This document shows, in pieces, positions 1,703 to 52,838 of a DNA stretch of 64,000 bases. Both the position numbers and the translations under genes were made by a program. The stretch comes from Alphaproteobacteria bacterium (GTDB taxonomy: Bacteria > Pseudomonadota > Alphaproteobacteria > Reyranellales > Reyranellaceae). Within the stretch, counting starts at the first letter, position 1; every line of letters starts with the position of its first letter. The stretch is from assembly GCA_016870115.1 (NCBI GenBank), contig VGCH01000008.1, positions 62,001 through 126,000 on the forward strand, written 5' to 3'. The notes beneath the pieces are model-generated. The model had not been told where the DNA came from. It saw only the letters and a list, made by a program, of their open reading frames with translations, and made no database searches.

Positions 1703-3163
1703 ATGTCGAAGCGGGTGTTCATCGCGGCACTGGGAACGGAGACCAACCAGTTCGTGCCCTTCCCCACCGACCTCGCCGCCTTCGCCGAGTACGGCATCTG
1801 GCGGGGCGACGCCACGCGCCATCCGCCGACCTCGTTCACGGGTCCGCTGCATGTCTGGCGCCGCGAAGCCGAGGCGCGCGGCTGGACCGTGATCGAGGGA
1901 CTCGCCACCTTCGCGTCGCCCTCGGGCACCACGGTGCGCGCCGTCTACGAAGGCTTCCGCGAGGAGATCCTGGCCGGCATTCGCGCGGCGATGCCGCTCG
2001 ATGCCGTCCTGCTGAACGTTCACGGCGCGATGGTGGCCGACGGCTACGACGACTGCGAAGGCGATCTCTTGAGCCACGTGCGCGCCATCGTGGGGCCGAC
2101 GGTGGCGGTGGGTGCCGAGTTCGACCTGCATTGCCACCTCACCCAGCTGATGCTCGACAGCGCCGACGTGCTGGTCGGCTACAAGGAATACCCGCACACC
2201 GATCCCATGGAGCGGGCCGCCGAGCTGTTTGCGATCGTGGCCGACACCGTCATGGGCAAGGTGCGGCCCGTGATGGTCCGGCACGATTGCCGCATGATCG
2301 CGCAATACCGGACCTCGGTGCCGCCGATCGACGAGTTCGTGCGGCGCATGAAATCCTTCGAGGGGCGCGATGGCATCCTGTCGGTGTCGCTCAGTCACGG
2401 CTTCGCCTTCGCCGATGTCGAGGATGTCGGCACCCGAACGCTGGTGGTGGCCGACGGCGACCGCACCAAGGCCGAGGCGCTGGCGCGTCAACTGGGCCGC
2501 GAGCTGTGGGACAATCGCGAGCGCTACGCCACGCGTTATCTCACGGTCGAGCAGGCGATGGAGGCCGCGGGCCGGCACAACCAGGGCACGCTGGTGCTGG
2601 CCGATCGCGCCGACAATCCCGGCTCCGGCGCGCCCGGCGACTCGACCTTCCTCCTGCAGGCGCTGATCCAGCGACGGCTGGGCCCGACGCTGTTCGGCGT
2701 GATGTGGGACCCGCAGGCGCTCAAGGTGGCGCAGGCCGCGGGCGAGGGCGCGACGCTCACCATGCGCCTGGGCGGCAAGGCGGGCGCGGTGAGCGGCATG
2801 CCGGTCGATCTCGAGGTCACCGTGCATCGGCTCGCGCGCGACGTGCGCCAGCCCTACGGCCCGGTGATGGCGCCGCTGGGCGACATGGCGCTGCTCAAGA
2901 GCGAGCATGTCGATATCGCGATCAATGGCCTGCGCACCCAGACCTTCCACGCTGACGCCTTCCGCGCGGTCGGCGCGGAGCCCACCGACTACCGCACCGT
3001 GGTGGTGAAGTCCGCGCAGCATTTCTACAACGGCTTCGCCGGACTCGCCCGCGAGGTGCTCTACGTGGCCTCGCCCGGCGCCGCCGACCCCGACGTCACC
3101 CGCCTGCCCTACCGCAAGCGCCGCACCCCGTTTTGGCCCAAGGTCGCCGACCCGTGGGCGTGA
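1703..3163 (+). CDS. M81 family metallopeptidase (MlrC-like)
   Basis: 486-residue member of the MlrC/M81 family, named after the sphingomonad protein that degrades linearised microcystin. Most members occur in organisms that never meet microcystin and have unknown peptide-like substrates. Family signatures are the start RVFIAALGTETNQF, the AVLLNVHGAMVADG strand, EFDLHCHLT with candidate metal ligands, the GYKEYPHTDPMERA segment, and the C-terminal domain including LADRADNPGSGAPGDSTF. The ATG at 1703 follows a GGAG-like ribosome site overlapping the tag stop; an upstream in-frame start at 1631 would run through tag. No signal peptide is seen, so a cytosolic location is inferred. Confidence 0.9.
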   Translation: MSKRVFIAALGTETNQFVPFPTDLAAFAEYGIWRGDATRHPPTSFTGPLHVWRREAEARGWTVIEGLATFASPSGTTVRAVYEGFREEILAGIRAAMPLDAVLLNVHGAMVADGYDDCEGDLLSHVRAIVGPTVAVGAEFDLHCHLTQLMLDSADVLVGYKEYPHTDPMERAAELFAIVADTVMGKVRPVMVRHDCRMIAQYRTSVPPIDEFVRRMKSFEGRDGILSVSLSHGFAFADVEDVGTRTLVVADGDRTKAEALARQLGRELWDNRERYATRYLTVEQAMEAAGRHNQGTLVLADRADNPGSGAPGDSTFLLQALIQRRLGPTLFGVMWDPQALKVAQAAGEGATLTMRLGGKAGAVSGMPVDLEVTVHRLARDVRQPYGPVMAPLGDMALLKSEHVDIAINGLRTQTFHADAFRAVGAEPTDYRTVVVKSAQHFYNGFAGLAREVLYVASPGAADPDVTRLPYRKRRTPFWPKVADPWA

Positions 3164-3210
3164 GGTCGGGCGCGCGCTAGACTGGCCTCCAAGAATGAAA
3201 GGAACGACAC

Positions 3211-4008
3211 ATGAAAATCGCCGTGGTTGGCGCCGGCGGGCGCATGGGGCGGATGCTGGTGCGGGAGCTGGGGCGGCGCGCGGGTGCTGAGCTGGCGGCG
3301 GCCTGCGAGGGGCCGGGCTCGAGCTGGGCCGGCCGCGATTCGGGCGAGCTCGCGGGGCTGGAGCCCAACGGGGTGAAGATCGGCACCGACGCGGGCGCGG
3401 CGATCGGCGCGGCCGACGCGCTGATCGACTTCACGGTGCCGGCGGCGACGGCGGCGCACGCGGCACTCGCGGCCGAGCGCGGGCGCGCGATGGTGATCGG
3501 CACCACGGGGCTCGACGCGGCGCAGACCGCGGCCGTCCACGCGGCGGCCAAGCGCGTGCCGGTCCTGTGGGCGGCCAACATGGCGCTCGGCGTCAATGTG
3601 CTGCTGGCGCTGGTCGAGAAGACGGCCGCGATGCTGGCCGCGGACTACGACATCGAGGTGCTGGAGATGCACCATCGCCACAAGATCGACGCGCCCTCGG
3701 GCACGGCGCTGGCCCTCGGTCGCGCGGCGGCGGCGGGCCGCGGGGTCGCGCTGGAGAAGGTCTGGCGCAAGACGCGCGATGGCCACACCGGCGCGCGGCC
3801 GTCGGGCGAGATCGGCTTCGCCACGCTGCGCGGCGGCGAGGAGGTCGGCGTGCACACCGTGATGTTCGCCGCCGCAGGCGAGCGGCTGGAACTCGGCCAT
3901 CGCAGCTTCAGTCGCGAGACCTACGCCGCCGGCGCGGTGACGGCGGCGCTCTGGCTCAGGGGCAAACCGGCCGGCCTCTACGGCATGAAGGACGTGCTGG
4001 GATTGTAG
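3211..4008 (+). CDS. dapB: 4-hydroxy-tetrahydrodipicolinate reductase
   Basis: Cytosolic 265-residue enzyme of the diaminopimelate/lysine pathway, reducing 4-hydroxy-tetrahydrodipicolinate with NAD(P)H. The N-terminal Rossmann motif is AVVGAGGRMGR. The active site is the conserved HHRHKIDAPSGTA stretch carrying the catalytic His and Lys. The GTTGL and MALGVNVLL segments, the latter after AAN, are also canonical. The ATG lies behind a GAAAGGA ribosome site, 47 nt after the M81 gene. Other lysine-pathway genes are absent from the window. Its 3' end faces the convergent flavin reductase gene across a diverged repeat. Confidence 0.96.
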   Translation: MKIAVVGAGGRMGRMLVRELGRRAGAELAAACEGPGSSWAGRDSGELAGLEPNGVKIGTDAGAAIGAADALIDFTVPAATAAHAALAAERGRAMVIGTTGLDAAQTAAVHAAAKRVPVLWAANMALGVNVLLALVEKTAAMLAADYDIEVLEMHHRHKIDAPSGTALALGRAAAAGRGVALEKVWRKTRDGHTGARPSGEIGFATLRGGEEVGVHTVMFAAAGERLELGHRSFSRETYAAGAVTAALWLRGKPAGLYGMKDVLGL

Positions 4009-4033
4009 CGCACCGCCGATGGCGCGGGCACCG

Positions 4034-4102
4034 CGTCATCCCGAGCGCATGCGGGGGATCTTTCGGGTCCAGGAGAGACCCTTCCCTCCGCCCGAGCGTC
4101 AG
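4034..4102. repeat. Short palindromic-type dispersed repeat, copy 1
   Basis: Intergenic element between convergent genes, related to the copy at 50896-50963. Both begin with CGTC, share the core AGACCCTTC preceded by a TCGGG-rich part, and end in an imperfect complement of the start. This copy runs into the last codon of the flavin reductase gene. It resembles the REP-like palindromes common in high-GC bacteria. It could act as a bidirectional transcript end or simply be a non-autonomous element. Confidence 0.45.
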
Positions 4103-4599
4103 CCCGCGAGCACGTCGCCCGCGATGAAGCGGCCGTCGGCATAGAGCAGCGGTCGGGCGGTGGGGTCGAGCGCCAGCTCGACGATTTCGCCGACATAGAT
4201 CGTGTGCGTGCCGGCGGCCAGCCGCGCGACCAGCCGGCAGTCGAACGAGACGGGGCAGCCCGCGAGCGCCGGCGCGCCGGTGACGAGCGTGCTCCAACTG
4301 CCCATGCCTTCGAAGCGCGCGTCGCCCTCGATGCCATCCATGCCGGCGAAGCGCTCGGCGATCCGGCGATGTGCGGGCGCGAGGATGTTGACGCAGAAGA
4401 TGCCGGCTTCACCCAAAGGATCGTGCGCCGACGCGCTCTTGTTCACGCAGGCGAGGATCTGCGGCGGGTCGGCCGAGACCGAACAGACCGCCGTCGCGGT
4501 GAGGCCGCCGCGCTGGCCCGCGTGCCGGGTCGTGACCAACGCCACGCTCGCCGCCAGATGCCGCATGCCCGCCTTGAACCGCGCCGGATCGATCGCCAT
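4099..4599 (-). CDS. Flavin reductase family protein
   Basis: 166-residue protein of the flavin reductase/DIM6-NTAB domain family, which typically reduces FMN or FAD with NAD(P)H to feed a partner monooxygenase. Visible family features are the N-terminal FKAGMRHLAASVALVTT, the GLTATAVCSVSADPPQILACVN flavin-binding region (taken as a whole from residues 31 to 53), FCVNIL, and the late HTIYVGEIVEL strand. Length is typical. No monooxygenase lies next to it, so its partner is unknown. The leader holds a small GCCCC-GCGA-GGGGC hairpin at 4615-4628 just before the start. Confidence 0.85.
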   Translation of the reverse strand: MAIDPARFKAGMRHLAASVALVTTRHAGQRGGLTATAVCSVSADPPQILACVNKSASAHDPLGEAGIFCVNILAPAHRRIAERFAGMDGIEGDARFEGMGSWSTLVTGAPALAGCPVSFDCRLVARLAAGTHTIYVGEIVELALDPTARPLLYADGRFIAGDVLAG

Positions 4600-4732
4600 G
4601 CCGCTCCTCTACAGGCCCCGCGAGGGGCGGAAAACCTTGTCACAAAACGGCAGTATTGACGCAACGCAAATGTCACCCGGATGGCCGCGCTTTCGCGTTG
4701 CGCCGCGCGCATGAGCGGGCTGGGATGGGACG

Positions 4733-17943: not shown

Positions 17944-19733
17944 CCTCTGGCCTTTTGCGCCGCCGGAACACGGATCGAGAAACGCGCGCCCCGGATCGCG
18001 CCATCGGGATCGCGCCGGTTGGCGGCGGCGATCGAGCCGCCATAGGTTTCCACGATCTGTCGGCAGATCGACAGGCCGAGGCCGGAATGCTTGCCGAAAT
18101 GTTCCGACGGGCGCTCGGAGTAGAAGCGGTTGAATATCGACTCGAGATTGTCCTCGGGGATGCCCGGCCCCTCGTCGTCGACGGTCACGAGAAATCCGTC
18201 ACCCGCCGGATCACGCGCCAGCTCCACCACAACGCGCGCGCCGGGCGGGCTGAAGGACAGCGCATTGTCGATCACGTTGCGGAAGACCTGGCTGTAGCGG
18301 CCATCGTGGCCGTGAGCCGGACAGGGCGCCGCCACGTTGACCCGCAGCTCCACCGTCGCCCCCGACTTGCCCTCAAGCGTGGCCGTGTAGTTGCGAACCA
18401 TTTCCTCGAGCAGGCTCGCGAGTTCGACCGGCTGCACGGCGCCGCGCATCAGCTCGGCGTCCAGGCGGGAGGCGTCCGAGATATCGGAGATGAGCCGGTT
18501 CAGACGGTCGATGTCCGACATCACGATCGACATCAGCGTTTCGCGCCGGTCCGCCGGAAGGTCCGGCCGCGCGACCAGCTCCAGCGCTGAGCGCAGCGAC
18601 GTGAGCGGGTTCTTGAGTTCGTGCGCCACATCGGCCGCAAAGCTCTCGATAGCGTCAATGCGCAGGCCCAGCGCCTCGGTCATGGCCGTGAGCGAGTCGT
18701 TCAGGTCGCCGATCTCGTCGCCGCGCCGGCCGAGATCGGGGATCGGTTCGTGGACGCCGCGCGCCAGTCGCACCGCGTCGGCGGCACGGGCGAGCCGCAC
18801 CACCGGCTGGGTAATGGTGCCCGCGATGTAGAGCGAGAACAGGACGGTGATCCCCAGCGCCGCGACCGCGATGATCATCAGGTCGTAGCGCACCTCGCGC
18901 AGCGACGCGGCGATCGAGCGATTGTCGCGGGTCAGCACCAGCGCGCCCAGCACCTGCTTGTAGCGCTGCACCGGCACCGCCGCCGACAGAATGAGTGACC
19001 CGTCCGGCACCACGCGTACCGCCGAGGCGTTGAAGCCGCGCAGCGCGCTCTGCGCCTCCGGGAAGTCGCGCGCCGAGGGCAGAACCCTCTCAACGTGGTC
19101 CGGGAAACGTTGCGACCGCGACAGCCGGCGCGCGATCCATTCGCTCAGCCGGTCGAGCGGGTTGTCGAGCATGCCGGGCCCGGCGTCGGGCGGCGGCAGC
19201 GGCCGTACATGGATCCGGCCGGCTTCCATCAACTGCGCGCTGTCGCCCAGCAGCTCGCCGGTCTCGCCGAACAGCCGCGCCCGCACCCCGGTGGGCCGCA
19301 CCAGCCGGATCAGAAGCTGGCGCGCGGACTCGGCATCGAGACGGTTGATGGTGGTCTCGCCGCCGATCACTGCAACCTCGCCGATGCCCGCGGCCACCAT
19401 CTCGCCCTGCACCAGGAGCGAGGCGAGTTCGGCGTCGATCAGTTCGTCCTCATAGTCCGACAGGAACACCGCGCCGATGCCGAGGAGCACCACCGGCACG
19501 ATATTGAGCAGCATGAGACGACGCGTGAGCGGCGAGAACCGGCGGCGCGGTCGTGCTCGCCGCAGGAGCGAGGATTGCTCGCGCGGCGCCGTCCCGGTCG
19601 ACGGATCGGCGGCGGTCGCGCCGTCGCGGCGGAAACGCGCGAGGACGCCGCGCAGCCGCGCACCCAGGCTTCCGAGGAACGTGCCCAGGCGCCGCGCGGG
19701 ATCAGCCGTCGCGGTACCGGTATCCAATGCCAT
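17940..19733 (-). CDS. chvG: Sensor histidine kinase ChvG
   Basis: 597-residue inner-membrane sensor kinase. A basic cytosolic N-terminus (about 70 residues) precedes membrane segment 1 at about 73-93. A periplasmic sensing domain runs to membrane segment 2 at about 281-305, followed by HAMP, the H-box [17 protein letters not shown] with the phospho-His near 369, and an ATPase domain ([30 protein letters not shown]). ChvG-type kinases respond to acidity or envelope stress and phosphorylate ChvI. The start overlaps the chvI 3' end by 32 nt. The unusually long N-terminal extension before the first membrane segment could mean the true start is internal. Confidence 0.94.
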
Positions 19734-20397
19734 AGAGGGTTTCGATGTGGTCGAATTCGGTGTCGACTTCGCGGAACTTGCGGCGGATGCGCTTGATGTG
19801 GCTGTCGATGGTGCGATCGTCGACGTAGATCGTCTCGCCGTAGGCCGAGTCCATCAGCTGATCGCGGTTCTTCACATGGCCGGGCCGCTCGGCCAGCGAC
19901 TTCAGGAGCAGGAACTCGGTCACCGTGAGGTGAACCTCCTTGCCCTTCCAGCTGCAGAGGTGCCGGCCGGGGTCGAGCACCAGTTCGCCGCGCACCACGC
20001 GCTCGGCCTGGCCCTCGGTCTTGGGCGTTCCGGTATCGTTGCGCCGCAGAACCGCGCGCACGCGCTCCAGCAGCAGACGCTGGGAGAACGGCTTGCGGAT
20101 GAAGTCGTCGGCGCCCATGCGCAGGCCCAGCACCTCGTCGATCTCCTCATCCTTGGAGGTGAGGAAGATGACCGGGAAGGTCTGGGTCTTGCGGATGCGG
20201 TTCAGCAGCTCCATGCCGTCCATGCGCGGCATCTTGATGTCGAAGATCGCAAGATCGGGCGGAGCCTGGTTCAGGCCGTCGAGCGCCGAGGCGCCGTCGT
20301 TATAGGTCTTGATCTGGAAGCCCTCGGTTTCCAGCAACATCGAGACCGACGTGAGGATGTTGCGGTCGTCGTCGACGAGGGCGATGGTCTTGCGCAC
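19702..20397 (-). CDS. chvI: Response regulator ChvI
   Basis: 231-residue OmpR/PhoB-type regulator. The receiver domain has the acidic cluster VDDDRN, phospho-acceptor Asp53 in [11 protein letters not shown], the conserved Thr/Lys of FLTSKDEE and [10 protein letters not shown]. The winged-helix DNA-binding domain ends [20 protein letters not shown] and [10 protein letters not shown]. It is the first gene of the seven-gene operon and partners the adjacent kinase. It starts with GTG at 20397, 9 nt behind an AGGAG ribosome site. The 82-nt gap upstream must hold the operon promoter, but no box could be assigned. Confidence 0.95.
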
Positions 20398-48896: not shown

Positions 48897-49754
48897 TCAA
48901 CGGCCGCCGACAATCAGCAACACCGCAACGAGCGCGAGCGCCAGCCCGCCGGCCTGAATGCGGTTGGGTCGCTCACCCAGCACGGCAGCCGCCAGCACGA
49001 CAGTGCTGGCAGGATAGAGCGAGGTCAGCATGGCGATCACCGCCAACTGTCCTTCGCGGCTTGCAAGCAGGTAAAGCGCGTTGGCGGCGGCATCGCAGGC
49101 CCCCGCACCCGAGATCAGCATCCACAGCCCGGCGCCAGTTGGCCGCCGCACCCAGCCGCGTCGCAGAACGAGCGGAATCGCGAGCAGGACCAGCGCCACC
49201 GAGGCGCTCCGCGCCGCGACCAGCGGCCACAGACCGGCCGCCGGCTCGGTATGGGCGATCAGGACATAGAACCAGCCGATCCCAAGACCGGCCGCGATGG
49301 CGATCCAGAACGCCGCGCGGGCGTTTGCCGGTGCCGGCCCCCGATCGCTCTCGCGCGACACCGCGAGGATCGCGAGGGCGGCGAGCGCGAGCCCGGCTGC
49401 GACGATGGGGCTGGGCCAGGCCGCAAAGATGAGCCCCCAGACGACGGGCACCGCCACCGAGAACAGGGCCGTCACCGGCGCCACCACGGACATGCGGCCG
49501 AGCGCGAGCGCGAGATAGAGCAGCGGAATGCCGATCAGCGTCGATAGGCCTGCGGCGGCCCCCCAGGCGAGGTCCGCGATCCGGACCTCGCCGGCCCCCA
49601 GCGTCGGCGCCGCGACCAGCATCAGCAGCAGCCCGACCACCTGGCCGATCGCGACCACGGTGAAGGCGTGCAGGCGCCGGACCGCAAGCCCGCCCAGAAA
49701 ATCGCCGGCGCCGTACACCGCGGCCGCCAGCAACGCCAATCCAGCGCCCATCAT
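48897..49754 (-). CDS. EamA/DMT-family transporter
   Basis: 285-residue inner-membrane protein with about ten hydrophobic segments in two homologous halves, as in the drug/metabolite transporter superfamily. The N-terminal half includes AGDFLGGLAVRRL and YLALALGRMSVVAPVTALFS (residues 81-100); the second half ends TSLYPASTVVLAAAVLGERPN and LALALVAVLLIVGG (the EamA repeat signature near residue 250). Substrate unknown. It is divergent from the small secreted-protein cluster. Confidence 0.9.
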   Translation of the reverse strand: MMGAGLALLAAAVYGAGDFLGGLAVRRLHAFTVVAIGQVVGLLLMLVAAPTLGAGEVRIADLAWGAAAGLSTLIGIPLLYLALALGRMSVVAPVTALFSVAVPVVWGLIFAAWPSPIVAAGLALAALAILAVSRESDRGPAPANARAAFWIAIAAGLGIGWFYVLIAHTEPAAGLWPLVAARSASVALVLLAIPLVLRRGWVRRPTGAGLWMLISGAGACDAAANALYLLASREGQLAVIAMLTSLYPASTVVLAAAVLGERPNRIQAGGLALALVAVLLIVGGR

Positions 49755-49817
49755 GCCCGGATTCTAGCCGTCGACGGGGCTATCGCGAAACCGACGCAAC
49801 ATGATCGCGGACGGCGC

Positions 49818-49862
49818 GACATCGCGGCGACACGAAGCGCCGGCATAGTCGCCCCATCGAAA
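49818..49862 (+). promoter_or_regulatory. Shared 45-nt leader block, copy 1
   Basis: An ungapped 45-nt block 24 nt before a small secreted-protein gene, matching 51024-51068 at 33 of 45 positions by hand count. Best-conserved parts are ACATCGC, CGACAC and CCCCATCGAAA. A CGAAACC word also precedes both blocks. It is probably a common promoter or 5' untranslated region. Confidence 0.55.
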
Positions 49863-49886
49863 TCAACCCGCCCGCCGGAGGCCGCC

Positions 49887-50072
49887 ATGTTCAAGACCCT
49901 GACCCTCACCGTCGCACTGCTCGCCGCCACCCTGGCCGCGCCCGCCCACGCCAAAGTCTGCCCGACCTGCCTGGTCGCCAGTGAGGCGGCGGCGACCTTT
50001 GCCCGCACGGCGGCGCCCCTCGTCCCGATGCTCACGACCGACGCGCTCGAACACTCCTTCGTCGCGCGCTAA
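49887..50072 (+). CDS. Small secreted protein with CxxC
   Basis: 61-residue protein. A signal peptide at 1-22 (MFKTLTLTVALLAATLAAPA then HA) leaves a mature peptide of about 39 residues starting KVCPTCLVASEAA. The CPTC motif could bind metal or form a disulfide; no known family was recognised. The ATG follows CCGGAGG. The next gene begins 10 nt later, so both are likely co-transcribed. Its leader and signal peptide resemble those of the gene at 51082, pointing to a local duplication of the expression signals. Confidence 0.65.
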   Translation: MFKTLTLTVALLAATLAAPAHAKVCPTCLVASEAAATFARTAAPLVPMLTTDALEHSFVAR

Positions 50073-50082
50073 GGTGGCCTCG

Positions 50083-50859
50083 ATGACCCGCCGCCTTCTC
50101 GCGCCGCTCGCCGCGCTCGCGCTTGCCTCGACCCCGGCCAACGCCCAGGTCGCCGGCCCCCAGGTCACCTCAATCGGGGTGGAGGGCACGGAAATCGTGG
50201 TCAAGCTCTCCGACGGGCGCAATCTGCGCAGCAAGGAGCTGGTCGGCGCCGTGCTCGATGTGCGCTTCGAGGGCCAGGCTGCCAAGATGCGGATCGCCGC
50301 CGTCGAGCCCGATCCCGAGGACAAGACCGGCTCGGTCTGGCTGCACACCATGGAAACCCGCGGCCCCGACGGGCAATGGGCCAACGCCTGCTCGCCCGGC
50401 CCCGATGGCCGTCGGCAGGGCTTTCCGATCCATACCGCGAACGGCCTCGAGTTCACCTGCTCGGCGGGCGCGCTCGGCAAGTGCGTGCGCTTCGGCTTCC
50501 GGCCCTGGGCCAAGGCGCCCGATGGCCGCGACTATGCGCCGATCTATCAGGCCTGCGTGCGGATGGTGCGCGCCGACTATGGCGGCGACGGCCATGGCTG
50601 GACCAAGGACGGCACGCGCATCGACCTCTACGATGTCACCGAAACCCAGAAGCCGGACAACGATCCGACCGATGCCTTCGAGGCCGGCTGGACCGAGGCT
50701 GGCGCGGTCTGCGTGCACCACATCCGGGTCAAAGAGAACGTGACGCTGGCCGAGCTCGAGCAGCGCTATCCGCGACTAAAGGGCCGCACCGGCGCGGTGT
50801 GCACCGAGGAATTCGCCCGCGCCCACGGCGCCATCCTGTTCAACCGTTCGCCGAACTGA
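50083..50859 (+). CDS. Secreted ADYC-domain-like protein
   Basis: 258-residue exported protein with a signal peptide at about 1-22 (ending STPANAQ). A C-terminal region rich in Cys and Trp includes CVRFGFRPWAKAP, the CVRMVRADYGGDGHGWTKDG segment (residues 161-180) and AVCVHHIRVKEN. The ADYGGDG motif and Cys pattern resemble ADYC-domain proteins, best known from myxobacteria, whose function is unknown. At least seven cysteines in the mature part suggest disulfides in the periplasm. It follows the small CxxC protein after 10 nt. Confidence 0.75.
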   Translation: MTRRLLAPLAALALASTPANAQVAGPQVTSIGVEGTEIVVKLSDGRNLRSKELVGAVLDVRFEGQAAKMRIAAVEPDPEDKTGSVWLHTMETRGPDGQWANACSPGPDGRRQGFPIHTANGLEFTCSAGALGKCVRFGFRPWAKAPDGRDYAPIYQACVRMVRADYGGDGHGWTKDGTRIDLYDVTETQKPDNDPTDAFEAGWTEAGAVCVHHIRVKENVTLAELEQRYPRLKGRTGAVCTEEFARAHGAILFNRSPN

Positions 50860-50895
50860 ACAACGCCCGAGCGCGGCACGCGACGCCCGTCCCAC

Positions 50896-50963
50896 CGTCC
50901 TGACGCGCAGCCGAAGGACCGATCGGGGATCAGGAAAGACCCTTCGTTGACGCTCCGGGTGAC
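50896..50963. repeat. Short palindromic-type dispersed repeat, copy 2
   Basis: Related to 4034-4102, sharing the AGACCCTTC core and the overall inverted-repeat plan; its ends (CGTCCTGACGCGCAGCCGAAGG at the start, by positions 50896-50917, and CCTTCG ... GGGTGAC at the end) are partly complementary. It lies between two secreted-protein genes. Confidence 0.5.
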
Positions 50964-51023
50964 CGGCAGGGTGTCACGCACACCGCGCGCCGCGTAACAC
51001 ACGAAACCAAATCGCGCCGCTGC

Positions 51024-51068
51024 AACATCGCCACGACACAGGCCACGGGCACACTCTCCCCATCGAAA
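51024..51068 (+). promoter_or_regulatory. Shared 45-nt leader block, copy 2
   Basis: Matches 49818-49862 without gaps and ends 13 nt before the ATG of the secreted protein at 51082. The spacing to the start codon differs by 11 nt between the copies, so the conserved unit is the block itself. Confidence 0.55.
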
Positions 51069-51081
51069 CCGGGGAAACGCC

Positions 51082-51519
51082 ATGTTCCGCACTTTGATCG
51101 CCGCCCTCACCGCCCTCTGCCTCGCTGGCCCCGCACTCGCTGCTGGCCCCGATGGCCAGATCCAGCTCAGCCGCGATGGGTTGCTCGGTTTCAAGGGGTT
51201 CGCCCCGATCGTCGAGATGGCCCGCGAAAGCGAGGCCAGCCCGTTCGGTGCCCTCACCGAGGAGGTGACCCGGGTGGGCTTCAAGGCCGAGATCCAGGGT
51301 TTCCGCATGTCCGCGACGGCCGGCGTCTTCGCGTTCAACTACGGACTCGCCGGCGAAGGCGAGGGCCGGATCGCCACGCTCAGCGTCGGATACACCGCGC
51401 GCGACATCGCGGGTGGCGCGCTGAGCCTCGATGTCCGGCGCGACTTCGTCTACGCGATCGGTGCCGAGGAAGCGGCGGTCCAGACCCAGTTCCGCGCCCG
51501 CTGGGCGATGAAGTTCTGA
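51082..51519 (+). CDS. Secreted protein of unknown function
   Basis: 145-residue protein with a clear signal peptide (about 1-21, MFRTLIAALTALCLAGPALA). The mature part begins AGPDGQIQLSRDGLLGFKGF and contains alternating hydrophobic strands (GFKAEIQGFRMSATAGVFAF by residues 72-91; ATLSVGYTARDI; GALSLDVRRDFVYAI), ending RWAMKF. The beta-rich pattern with a terminal Phe suggests an outer-membrane or periplasmic beta protein, but it is short for a barrel. No family was recognised. Its leader is shared with the gene at 49887. Confidence 0.7.
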   Translation: MFRTLIAALTALCLAGPALAAGPDGQIQLSRDGLLGFKGFAPIVEMARESEASPFGALTEEVTRVGFKAEIQGFRMSATAGVFAFNYGLAGEGEGRIATLSVGYTARDIAGGALSLDVRRDFVYAIGAEEAAVQTQFRARWAMKF

Positions 51520-51534: not shown

Positions 51535-52704
51535 CTACCGCAGCGGCTCGAGAACGCTCACGTAGTTGGCGACCGCGGTGCCGCCCATGTTGAAGACGGC
51601 GCCGAGCTTGGCGTCCTTCCTCTGCATGCCGCCGGCCGAGCCGTCGAGCTGCATGGCCGCCATCACGTGCATCGAGACGCCCGTGGCGCCCACCGGATGG
51701 CCCTTGGACTTGAGCCCGCCCGACAGGTTCACCGGCAGCTTGCCGTCGGGCAGCGTCCAGCCTTCCAGGATCGCCTTTTCGCCCTGTCCTTCCGGCGTCA
51801 GGCCCATCGCCTCGTACTGCATCAACTCGGCCGAGGTGAAGCAATCGTGGGTCTCGACGAAGGAGAGATCGAGAAGATCGAGGCGCGCCTGCTGCAACGC
51901 CCGCTTCCAGGCGAGCGCCGGCCCCTCGAACTTCACCACGTCGCGGCGCGACATCGGCAGGAAGTCGTTCACATGCTCGGTGGCGCGAAAGGCGATCGCG
52001 CGCTTCATGCCGAGCGCGGTTTGCACATCGGTCAGGATCACCGCGGCCGCGCCATCGCTCACCGGCGAGCAGTCGGTGCGCTTCAGCGGACCCGCCACGA
52101 ACGGATTCTTGGCCGACGGCGTGCGGCAGAAGTCGTAGTCGAACTCGCGCTGGAAATGGGCGAACGGGTTCTTGGTGCCGTTGCGGTGGTTCTTGACCGA
52201 GATGTGGGCCAGCGCTTCCGACTTGTCGCCGTGGCGCTGGAAATAGGCCGAGGCGATCTTGCCGAAGATGCCGGCGAAGCCCGCGTCGATGCCGGCCTCT
52301 TCCTGGGCGTAGGAGGCCTTGAGCAGGATCTCGCCCACGGTCGGGCCATCGACGTCGCTCATCTTCTCGACGCCCACGACCAGCACGAAGCGCGCCTTCT
52401 TCGCCGCGAGGCTGTTCATGCCCATATGGATGGCGGCGGTGCCGGTGGCGCAGGCGTTCTCCACCCGGGTCGACGGCTTGAAGCGCAGATCGGGGTGCGC
52501 CTGAAGCGGCAGCGAGGAATGGAACTCCTGGCGGGAGAAGCCGCCATTCATGTTGCCGATGTAGATGACGTCGATGTCCTTGGGCTCGATGCCGGCATGG
52601 GCCATCGCCTCGTTGGCCGCCTCGACCACGAGCGTCTCGTTGGTCGTCTGGGCGTCATACTTGCCGAACTTGCTGTGCGACCAGCCGACGATACATGCCG
52701 TCAT
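51535..52704 (-). CDS. Thiolase family protein (acetyl-CoA acetyltransferase/SCPx-like)
   Basis: 389-residue thiolase-fold enzyme. The nucleophilic Cys is in RVENACATGTAAIH, and the C-terminal histidine and second active-site regions are VETHDCFTSAEL and SGGLKSKGHPVGATG, a pattern of the SCP-x/archaeal-type thiolases rather than classical PhaA or FadA. It may cleave or form acyl-CoA bonds in lipid or steroid-like degradation, often with a DUF35/OB-fold partner that is absent here. The ATG at 52704 begins the core; a 10-residue extension is possible. Confidence 0.9.
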   Translation of the reverse strand: MTACIVGWSHSKFGKYDAQTTNETLVVEAANEAMAHAGIEPKDIDVIYIGNMNGGFSRQEFHSSLPLQAHPDLRFKPSTRVENACATGTAAIHMGMNSLAAKKARFVLVVGVEKMSDVDGPTVGEILLKASYAQEEAGIDAGFAGIFGKIASAYFQRHGDKSEALAHISVKNHRNGTKNPFAHFQREFDYDFCRTPSAKNPFVAGPLKRTDCSPVSDGAAAVILTDVQTALGMKRAIAFRATEHVNDFLPMSRRDVVKFEGPALAWKRALQQARLDLLDLSFVETHDCFTSAELMQYEAMGLTPEGQGEKAILEGWTLPDGKLPVNLSGGLKSKGHPVGATGVSMHVMAAMQLDGSAGGMQRKDAKLGAVFNMGGTAVANYVSVLEPLR

Positions 52705-52838
52705 GCGGAAATCCCCTCGCTTTGGCCGCACCATACATCGGGGATTCTCCCGAACAAGATCGTTTTCCCAGCACCGGACTGCCCTATTCTTGCCGTGCGG
52801 GACCGCTTGTATGGTCAGTGAAGTCCCCAGGAGCCGCC

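Follow-up and report, generated by a model that had tools for sequence, protein, structure and literature searches.

Predicted exported peptide, ADYC-domain and beta-strand proteins of a Reyranellaceae genome linked by a recurrent putative promoter element

The ADYC domain (PF20032) owes its name to the cysteine of an A-D-Y-C tetrad, a residue that its HMM does not require; a literature search for the domain or its accession returned no paper describing its function. The present locus encodes a member of this family together with two further predicted exported proteins, and several described systems resemble it in part. Pentapeptide repeat proteins (PF00805) share period-5 repeats with the usual ADYC partner peptide; the ADYC partners, in contrast, are small, exported and of the type xN[G/A][hydrophobic]x, and the peptide encoded here is repeat-less. 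A literature search for pentapeptide repeats of the Asn-Gly type returned nothing. Curli (CsgA/CsgG) and Fap (FapC/FapF) are functional-amyloid systems that combine a small exported Asn/Gly repeat subunit with an outer-membrane protein, and by analogy the module may be likened to them, as it too pairs a small exported Asn/Gly repeat peptide with a (predicted) outer-membrane protein. As in OmpR-family systems with PAS_7 kinases, a kinase (PAS_7, HisKA) and a regulator flank the module in relatives, but both are missing next to the genes studied here. The literature searched contained no OmpR/PAS_7 system that controls an exported peptide together with ADYC and a beta protein, and nothing relevant by title on Reyranella response regulators.

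Three genes for predicted exported proteins

The stretch of DNA analysed (64 kb; the window) carries the three genes on its plus strand, as g1 (49887..50072), g2 (50083..50859) and g3 (51082..51519), separated by gaps of 10 bp and 222 bp. All three open reading frames have a strongly biased third-position GC content (0.88–0.92), with values by codon position of 0.67/0.57/0.92 for g1, 0.69/0.52/0.88 for the ADYC gene g2 and 0.68/0.52/0.88 for g3. A sequence-only reading had proposed that three genes for exported proteins lie together here, and all three frames are indeed present, each with a leader that we assigned by eye. The flanking genes, an EamA-like transporter (48897–49754, minus strand) and a thiolase-like gene (51535–52734, minus strand), look unrelated by eye. 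A role in anti-phage defence was rejected, with 0 PADLOC matches for all three proteins.

g1 is preceded by an RBS-like GGAGG (49877..49881) and specifies a predicted secreted peptide of 61 aa, composed of a leader of ~22 aa and, as anticipated earlier, a 39-residue mature part with a CxxC motif. This motif (CPTC within KVCPTC; 49959..49970) lies two residues past the predicted cleavage site. Pfam and NCBIfam searches yielded 0 families above cut-off for g1, tandem period-5 repeats are lacking, and among 61 genomes no homologue other than g1 itself was found at E<=0.001; the best other match (E 0.0028), which carries an internal stop, was rejected. Thioredoxin and cytochrome c were rejected as readings of the CxxC, the mature part having only 39 residues and no CxxCH, and a RiPP precursor was dismissed as well, given that the leaders are ordinary and Sec-like and that the stretches read showed no modifying enzyme.

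g2 starts at the ATG at 50083, rather than at the upstream start of the longer listed frame, and encodes 258 aa with a leader and an ADYC domain over residues 51–216 (50233..50730; 142.8 bits against a gathering cut-off of 27, E 1.6e-41). What was earlier described as 'ADYC-like' is a full Pfam domain, although the tetrad reads A-D-Y-G (50572..50583) and has lost its cysteine. Six cysteines are invariant in g2 and its 67 homologues (68/68). C167, the cysteine of A-D-Y-C, and C229 occur jointly in the same 24 of the 68 sequences and are both missing in the other 44, including the window copy, although related sequences count more than once in these numbers. Joint gain or loss of C167 and its apparent partner at 229 is the pattern expected from a disulfide, and so argues for an oxidising compartment. 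A model built from the 68 sequences reached a pLDDT of 94.2 and a pTM of 0.86. Foldseek returned 0 PDB matches for it at E<=0.001 (best E 0.057), and the best Z of 3.9 (VIA) concerned SH3/tudor-like parts within residues 25–124 only. On this model, the ADYC protein would be without a matching solved fold; the absence of a PDB match does not prove a new fold.

ADYC genes were detected in 11/61 relatives (own genome counted), in 2/299 genomes drawn across the phylum (own included) and in 4/72,556 plasmid records, all from Rhizobium or Neorhizobium. On these plasmid counts, a reading of ADYC as mobile cargo was rejected.

g3 encodes a predicted exported beta protein of 145 aa with an outer-membrane-type meander and a C-terminal Phe; Pfam and NCBIfam again gave 0 families above cut-off. 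Its model contains six confident long strands and ends in Phe, in agreement with the 'beta-rich short protein' of the sequence-only reading, at moderate overall confidence (pLDDT 74.7, pTM 0.58). Most structural neighbours of the model are outer-membrane barrels, the best being OpdK (Z 10.1 over 116 residues, 3.2 A); FapF ranks 29 (Z 7.6), and Foldseek found no match at E<=0.001. In comparison with these barrels, g3 is shorter, and a closed barrel would call for at least eight amphipathic strands, two more than the six seen with confidence.

Repeat peptides accompany ADYC genes

From 79 ADYC loci in named genomes, one partial locus on the second contig of a MAG (L112) was dropped, leaving 78 for a neighbourhood survey. 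In 57 of these, the same-strand sequence up to 1.5 kb upstream contains a repeat-peptide frame, compared to a background of 32 in 9662 frames. Repeat peptides were defined by at least three period-5 [NQ][GAS] units in register, and 55 loci have at least four. The partners are small exported peptides with the pattern xN[G/A][hydrophobic]x at period 5, e.g. LNGISLNGFNLNGILLNG in Tahibacter, and often finish with a motif like IxAIELPxxxR. PF00805 scored above cut-off in two of the seven repeat peptides scanned (L080, L081).

The pairing spans alpha-, beta- and gammaproteobacteria; Pelomonas is presumably beta-, and Tahibacter, Solimonas, Panacagrimonas and Hydrocarboniphaga presumably gammaproteobacterial. 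On two Rhizobium plasmids, a peptide with ITANA repeats lies downstream of ADYC, so the pair is kept although its order flips. As the count of 57 reflects an upstream scan only, it excludes peptides spotted by eye that are off register or further off (L060, L061, L064, L066, L101; L075, L077; L093, downstream). Degenerate candidates only were seen at L106 and L107, and four loci offer less than 750 bp of upstream sequence (L039, L055, L063, L067). No peptide was found at L054, L056, L062, L068, L089, L100 and L104.

Is g1 a member of this peptide class? A profile made from 17 repeat-peptide leaders selects g1 alone among the 780 open reading frames of the window (E 0.0005; next 1.7), a match with high compositional bias. 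Repeat peptides of Tahibacter and Hydrocarboniphaga likewise contain a CxxC, and in some gammaproteobacterial peptides this motif follows straight after the leader, as in g1. Since g1 has neither repeats nor a sequence homologue, only its position, leader and promoter place it among these peptides, and because it lacks both period-5 repeats and a Pfam match above cut-off, we file it only as an occupant of the slot. It is best seen as a repeat-less holder of the position usually taken by a pentapeptide-like repeat peptide.

The third gene is less widespread. g3 was found in 5/61 genomes, two of which have no ADYC (G036, and G034 with an internal stop), and an iterated search placed g3 homologues less than 2 kb from ADYC on the same strand in 4/78 loci. 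The strict triple is rare and the order g1–ADYC–g3 confined to few loci; still, the refuting case of the sequence-only reading, in which the three genes would never co-occur elsewhere, did not hold. The window order peptide–ADYC–g3 recurs at L034 and L040, each time followed by a regulator gene, and g3 sits between peptide and ADYC at L035 and L038. At L004 and L005, which have no ADYC, a g3-like gene follows a small exported Pro-rich peptide and precedes a regulator, with a kinase also present. g3 is thus an accessory of the peptide/ADYC system in one branch.

A shared element and a candidate two-component system

Alignment of upstream DNA revealed a block of ~77 bp ahead of the peptide genes. 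In the window, a window-free model (nhmmer) locates one copy 5′ of g1 (49783..49859, plus strand, ~77 bp; 3.1e-12) and another 5′ of g3 (50990..51065, plus strand, ~76 bp; 1.4e-11). Across all 64 kb, the model of 21 outside sites finds exactly these two sites, with the next match at 0.14; the window sites had been present in the alignment that supplied the 21 model rows. The sequence-only reading noted that two of the proteins share leader sequences; the likeness between g1 and g3 proved stronger in this upstream element than in the leaders themselves.

In total, 28 upstream stretches were aligned and five excluded: that of the window ADYC, the L034 peptide, g3 of L035 and L038 (close behind a peptide gene) and C39 (cut by the contig end). 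A further model, R1, comprises 16 of the 23 rows, three of them from the own genome, realigned without the window sites; omitted were the two window sites (deliberately), L049 (Ns), L043 and L044 (gaps), and L035 and L037 (poor). R1 scores elements 1 and 2 in their own genome at 1.1e-13 (C8:111784) and 2.7e-12. Over the whole 3.56 Mb, it calls eight sites at E<=5.3e-10, followed by matches at 9.3e-5 and 0.006. Three of the eight, two on contig C4 and one on C13, precede repeat peptides of the Asn-Gly or Asn-Ala type. An identical element copy is located at the C13 contig end, and a peptide of this type begins at the end of C39. The site on C2 has a weak peptide-like match behind it. The remaining strong sites are those of g1 and g3 and one on C6 ahead of a globin gene. 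On C6, two tandem globin genes (L165:3663–4082 and 4187–4603, both minus strand; PF00042 at 3.8e-16 and 4.8e-17) each lie behind an element copy, one strong (5.3e-10) and one weak (9.3e-5).

Among 37 genomes, 16 contain the element, corresponding to 16/23 of the same family and 0/14 outside; it also extends to some Acetobacteraceae loci. Reyranella aquatilis combines the element with both ADYC and g3. Behind 44 element sites in relatives we found ten repeat peptides, three g3-like genes, one ADYC and four PAS kinases. A further dozen or so genes are leaderless, two kinds of them with M23 or amidase domains, other genes make up the remainder, and no gene was called behind three of the 44. The element-led leaderless genes of related genera were found at L199, L207 and L223 (253 aa), at L206, L210, L211 and L212 (432–462 aa), and further at L215 and L233, L234, L224:211–1149 and L235, and include weak CHAP or peptidoglycan-binding matches as well as families without a clear Pfam match. 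Because the element also precedes a globin gene and, in relatives, cell-wall hydrolase genes, the regulon is broader than the module.

Which regulator might act on this element? In Reyranella-type genomes the genes run from sensor kinase via peptide, ADYC and, in some, g3 to an OmpR-type regulator. Regulator genes lie 3′ of ADYC in 16/78 loci, 14 at about 50–170 bp and two past g3, and a divergent PAS kinase gene lies upstream of ADYC in 14/78. Minus-strand element copies precede divergent kinase genes, and L004 and L005 carry copies ahead of both the peptide and the g3-like gene as well as on the opposite strand. In the window, no kinase or regulator gene is found beside g1–ADYC–g3, and the sole regulator match is at 19714–20388. 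The element, however, is common to the window genes and to loci that do carry kinase and regulator; as no regulator adjoins, it is this element alone that points to two-component control in the window.

In a tree (FastTree, midpoint root), the regulators of these loci group in one clade. The nearest relative in the own genome, a homologue on C23 (L122:2790–3338, minus strand), falls within this clade but covers just 183 of about 235 residues and lacks the end of the DNA-binding domain. A short frame of integrase-like look adjoins this truncated gene by eye. With no adjacent regulator and the nearest clade relative truncated, control of the window genes must come from elsewhere. A second homologue, on C38, has a divergent kinase beside it and is sister to the module clade; given the truncation on C23, the C38 pair would have to do the work.

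A proposed envelope module and competing readings

We judge it reasonably likely that g1, ADYC and g3 constitute one envelope module under two-component control. The sequence-only reading had envisaged an envelope or extracellular module outside standard annotation; the lack of a standard annotation, the linkage and the shared element speak for it, but its outline has to be redrawn. The unit extends beyond these three genes and is a regulated exported peptide/ADYC system, often with kinase and regulator, of which the window holds a copy without a local regulator.

Computation established the genes, the shared element, the ADYC–peptide linkage, the recurrent linkage of g3 and of kinase and regulator, and the ADYC model; alongside these, we envisage the following course of events. 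A membrane PAS sensor kinase would phosphorylate the OmpR-type regulator, which in turn would bind the ~77-bp element ahead of g1 and ahead of g3. ADYC, 10 bp behind g1, would be read through from the g1 promoter. All three proteins would then be exported via Sec, and ADYC would acquire three disulfides (four in many relatives) as it folds in the periplasm or at the surface, and would work with the small exported peptide, a partnership suggested by gene linkage. g3 may insert into or associate with the outer membrane and serve the peptide/ADYC pair as anchor or as exit. More tentatively, and with doubts prevailing, the system might represent a previously undescribed class of surface assembly, in which a sensor/regulator pair switches on exported pentapeptide-like repeat peptides together with an obligate, disulfide-bonded ADYC of new fold, joined in one branch by a small g3 of the outer membrane, the window being a stripped-down form with a repeat-less CxxC peptide. 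ADYC hereby gains a near-constant genetic partner and a candidate sensor/regulator, and the element marks out a regulon that can be searched for in any Reyranellaceae-like genome. With a partner, co-varying cysteines, a candidate regulator and an element at hand, ADYC function becomes directly testable.

That the three are chance neighbours, i.e. unrelated genes for ordinary secreted proteins, agrees with the small number of loci holding the strict triple. This explanation is nonetheless highly improbable in view of the element, which a model made without them recovered at g1 as well as at g3, the four loci with g3 near ADYC on the same strand and the peptide–ADYC pairing in 57 of 78. A surface fibre or matrix appears rather unlikely. 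Here, the repeat peptides might fold as an extracellular beta-solenoid or amyloid-like strands, with ADYC as chaperone or cap, g3 as exit and g1 as a degenerate or capping form. The Asn ladder and hydrophobic period-5 repeats across many paralogues would fit, as would the PF00805 hits in two of seven peptides, the strong ADYC–peptide pairing even with flipped order, and the appearance of FapF (rank 29) among structures that resemble the g3 model. g1, however, has no repeats, most ADYC loci have no g3, and the parallel to curli and Fap is one of analogy.

Two further readings we regard as improbable. Were the module devoted to interbacterial antagonism, the variable exported peptides might be bacteriocin-like, ADYC might confer immunity or maturation, and the regulon might answer competitors. 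In the own genome, several variable repeat-peptide paralogues indeed share a leader, and element copies in related genera stand ahead of leaderless M23 peptidase and amidase genes and of leaderless genes with weak CHAP or peptidoglycan-binding matches. Yet these peptides outnumber ADYC in the own genome, no immunity-like or modification gene was seen, the hydrolase genes are scattered singles in the stretches read, and PADLOC gave no match. The two globin genes behind element copies in the own genome might instead suggest a regulon for oxygen, nitric oxide or redox stress, whose kinase would sense the redox or membrane state and whose ADYC and peptides would be Cys- or Asn-rich envelope protectants. 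O2-dependent fatty acid hydroxylase-like genes a few kb from ADYC in 6/78 loci, together with the CxxC of g1 and of the Tahibacter and Hydrocarboniphaga peptides, would suit such a role. The globin link, though, was seen in the own genome only, and no haem or metal motif was recognised in ADYC, peptide or g3. The two-component envelope module is the reading that we prefer.

Several minor observations at related loci are worth recording. The tandem globin genes on C6 constitute a link between bacterial globins and the regulon. Membrane fatty acid hydroxylase-like genes occur near ADYC at L036, L038, L040, L042, L071 and L075 (PF04116 shown for L038), sometimes between peptide and ADYC. HTH-like genes, recognised by eye and of the 'GIDKSVVSRW' type, accompany peptide genes at L035:4044–5042 and L038:3–863 and 2658–4247, and are duplicated in Reyranella aquatilis. 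In the own genome, two contig ends (C13:86059–86183 and C39:18224–18481) carry matching element/peptide DNA, which suggests that a repeat broke the assembly at the gene of a repeat peptide. A repeat-peptide gene of this genome adjoins what appears by eye to be a sox-like (thiosulfate-oxidation) cluster (L132:3894–7460, minus strand).
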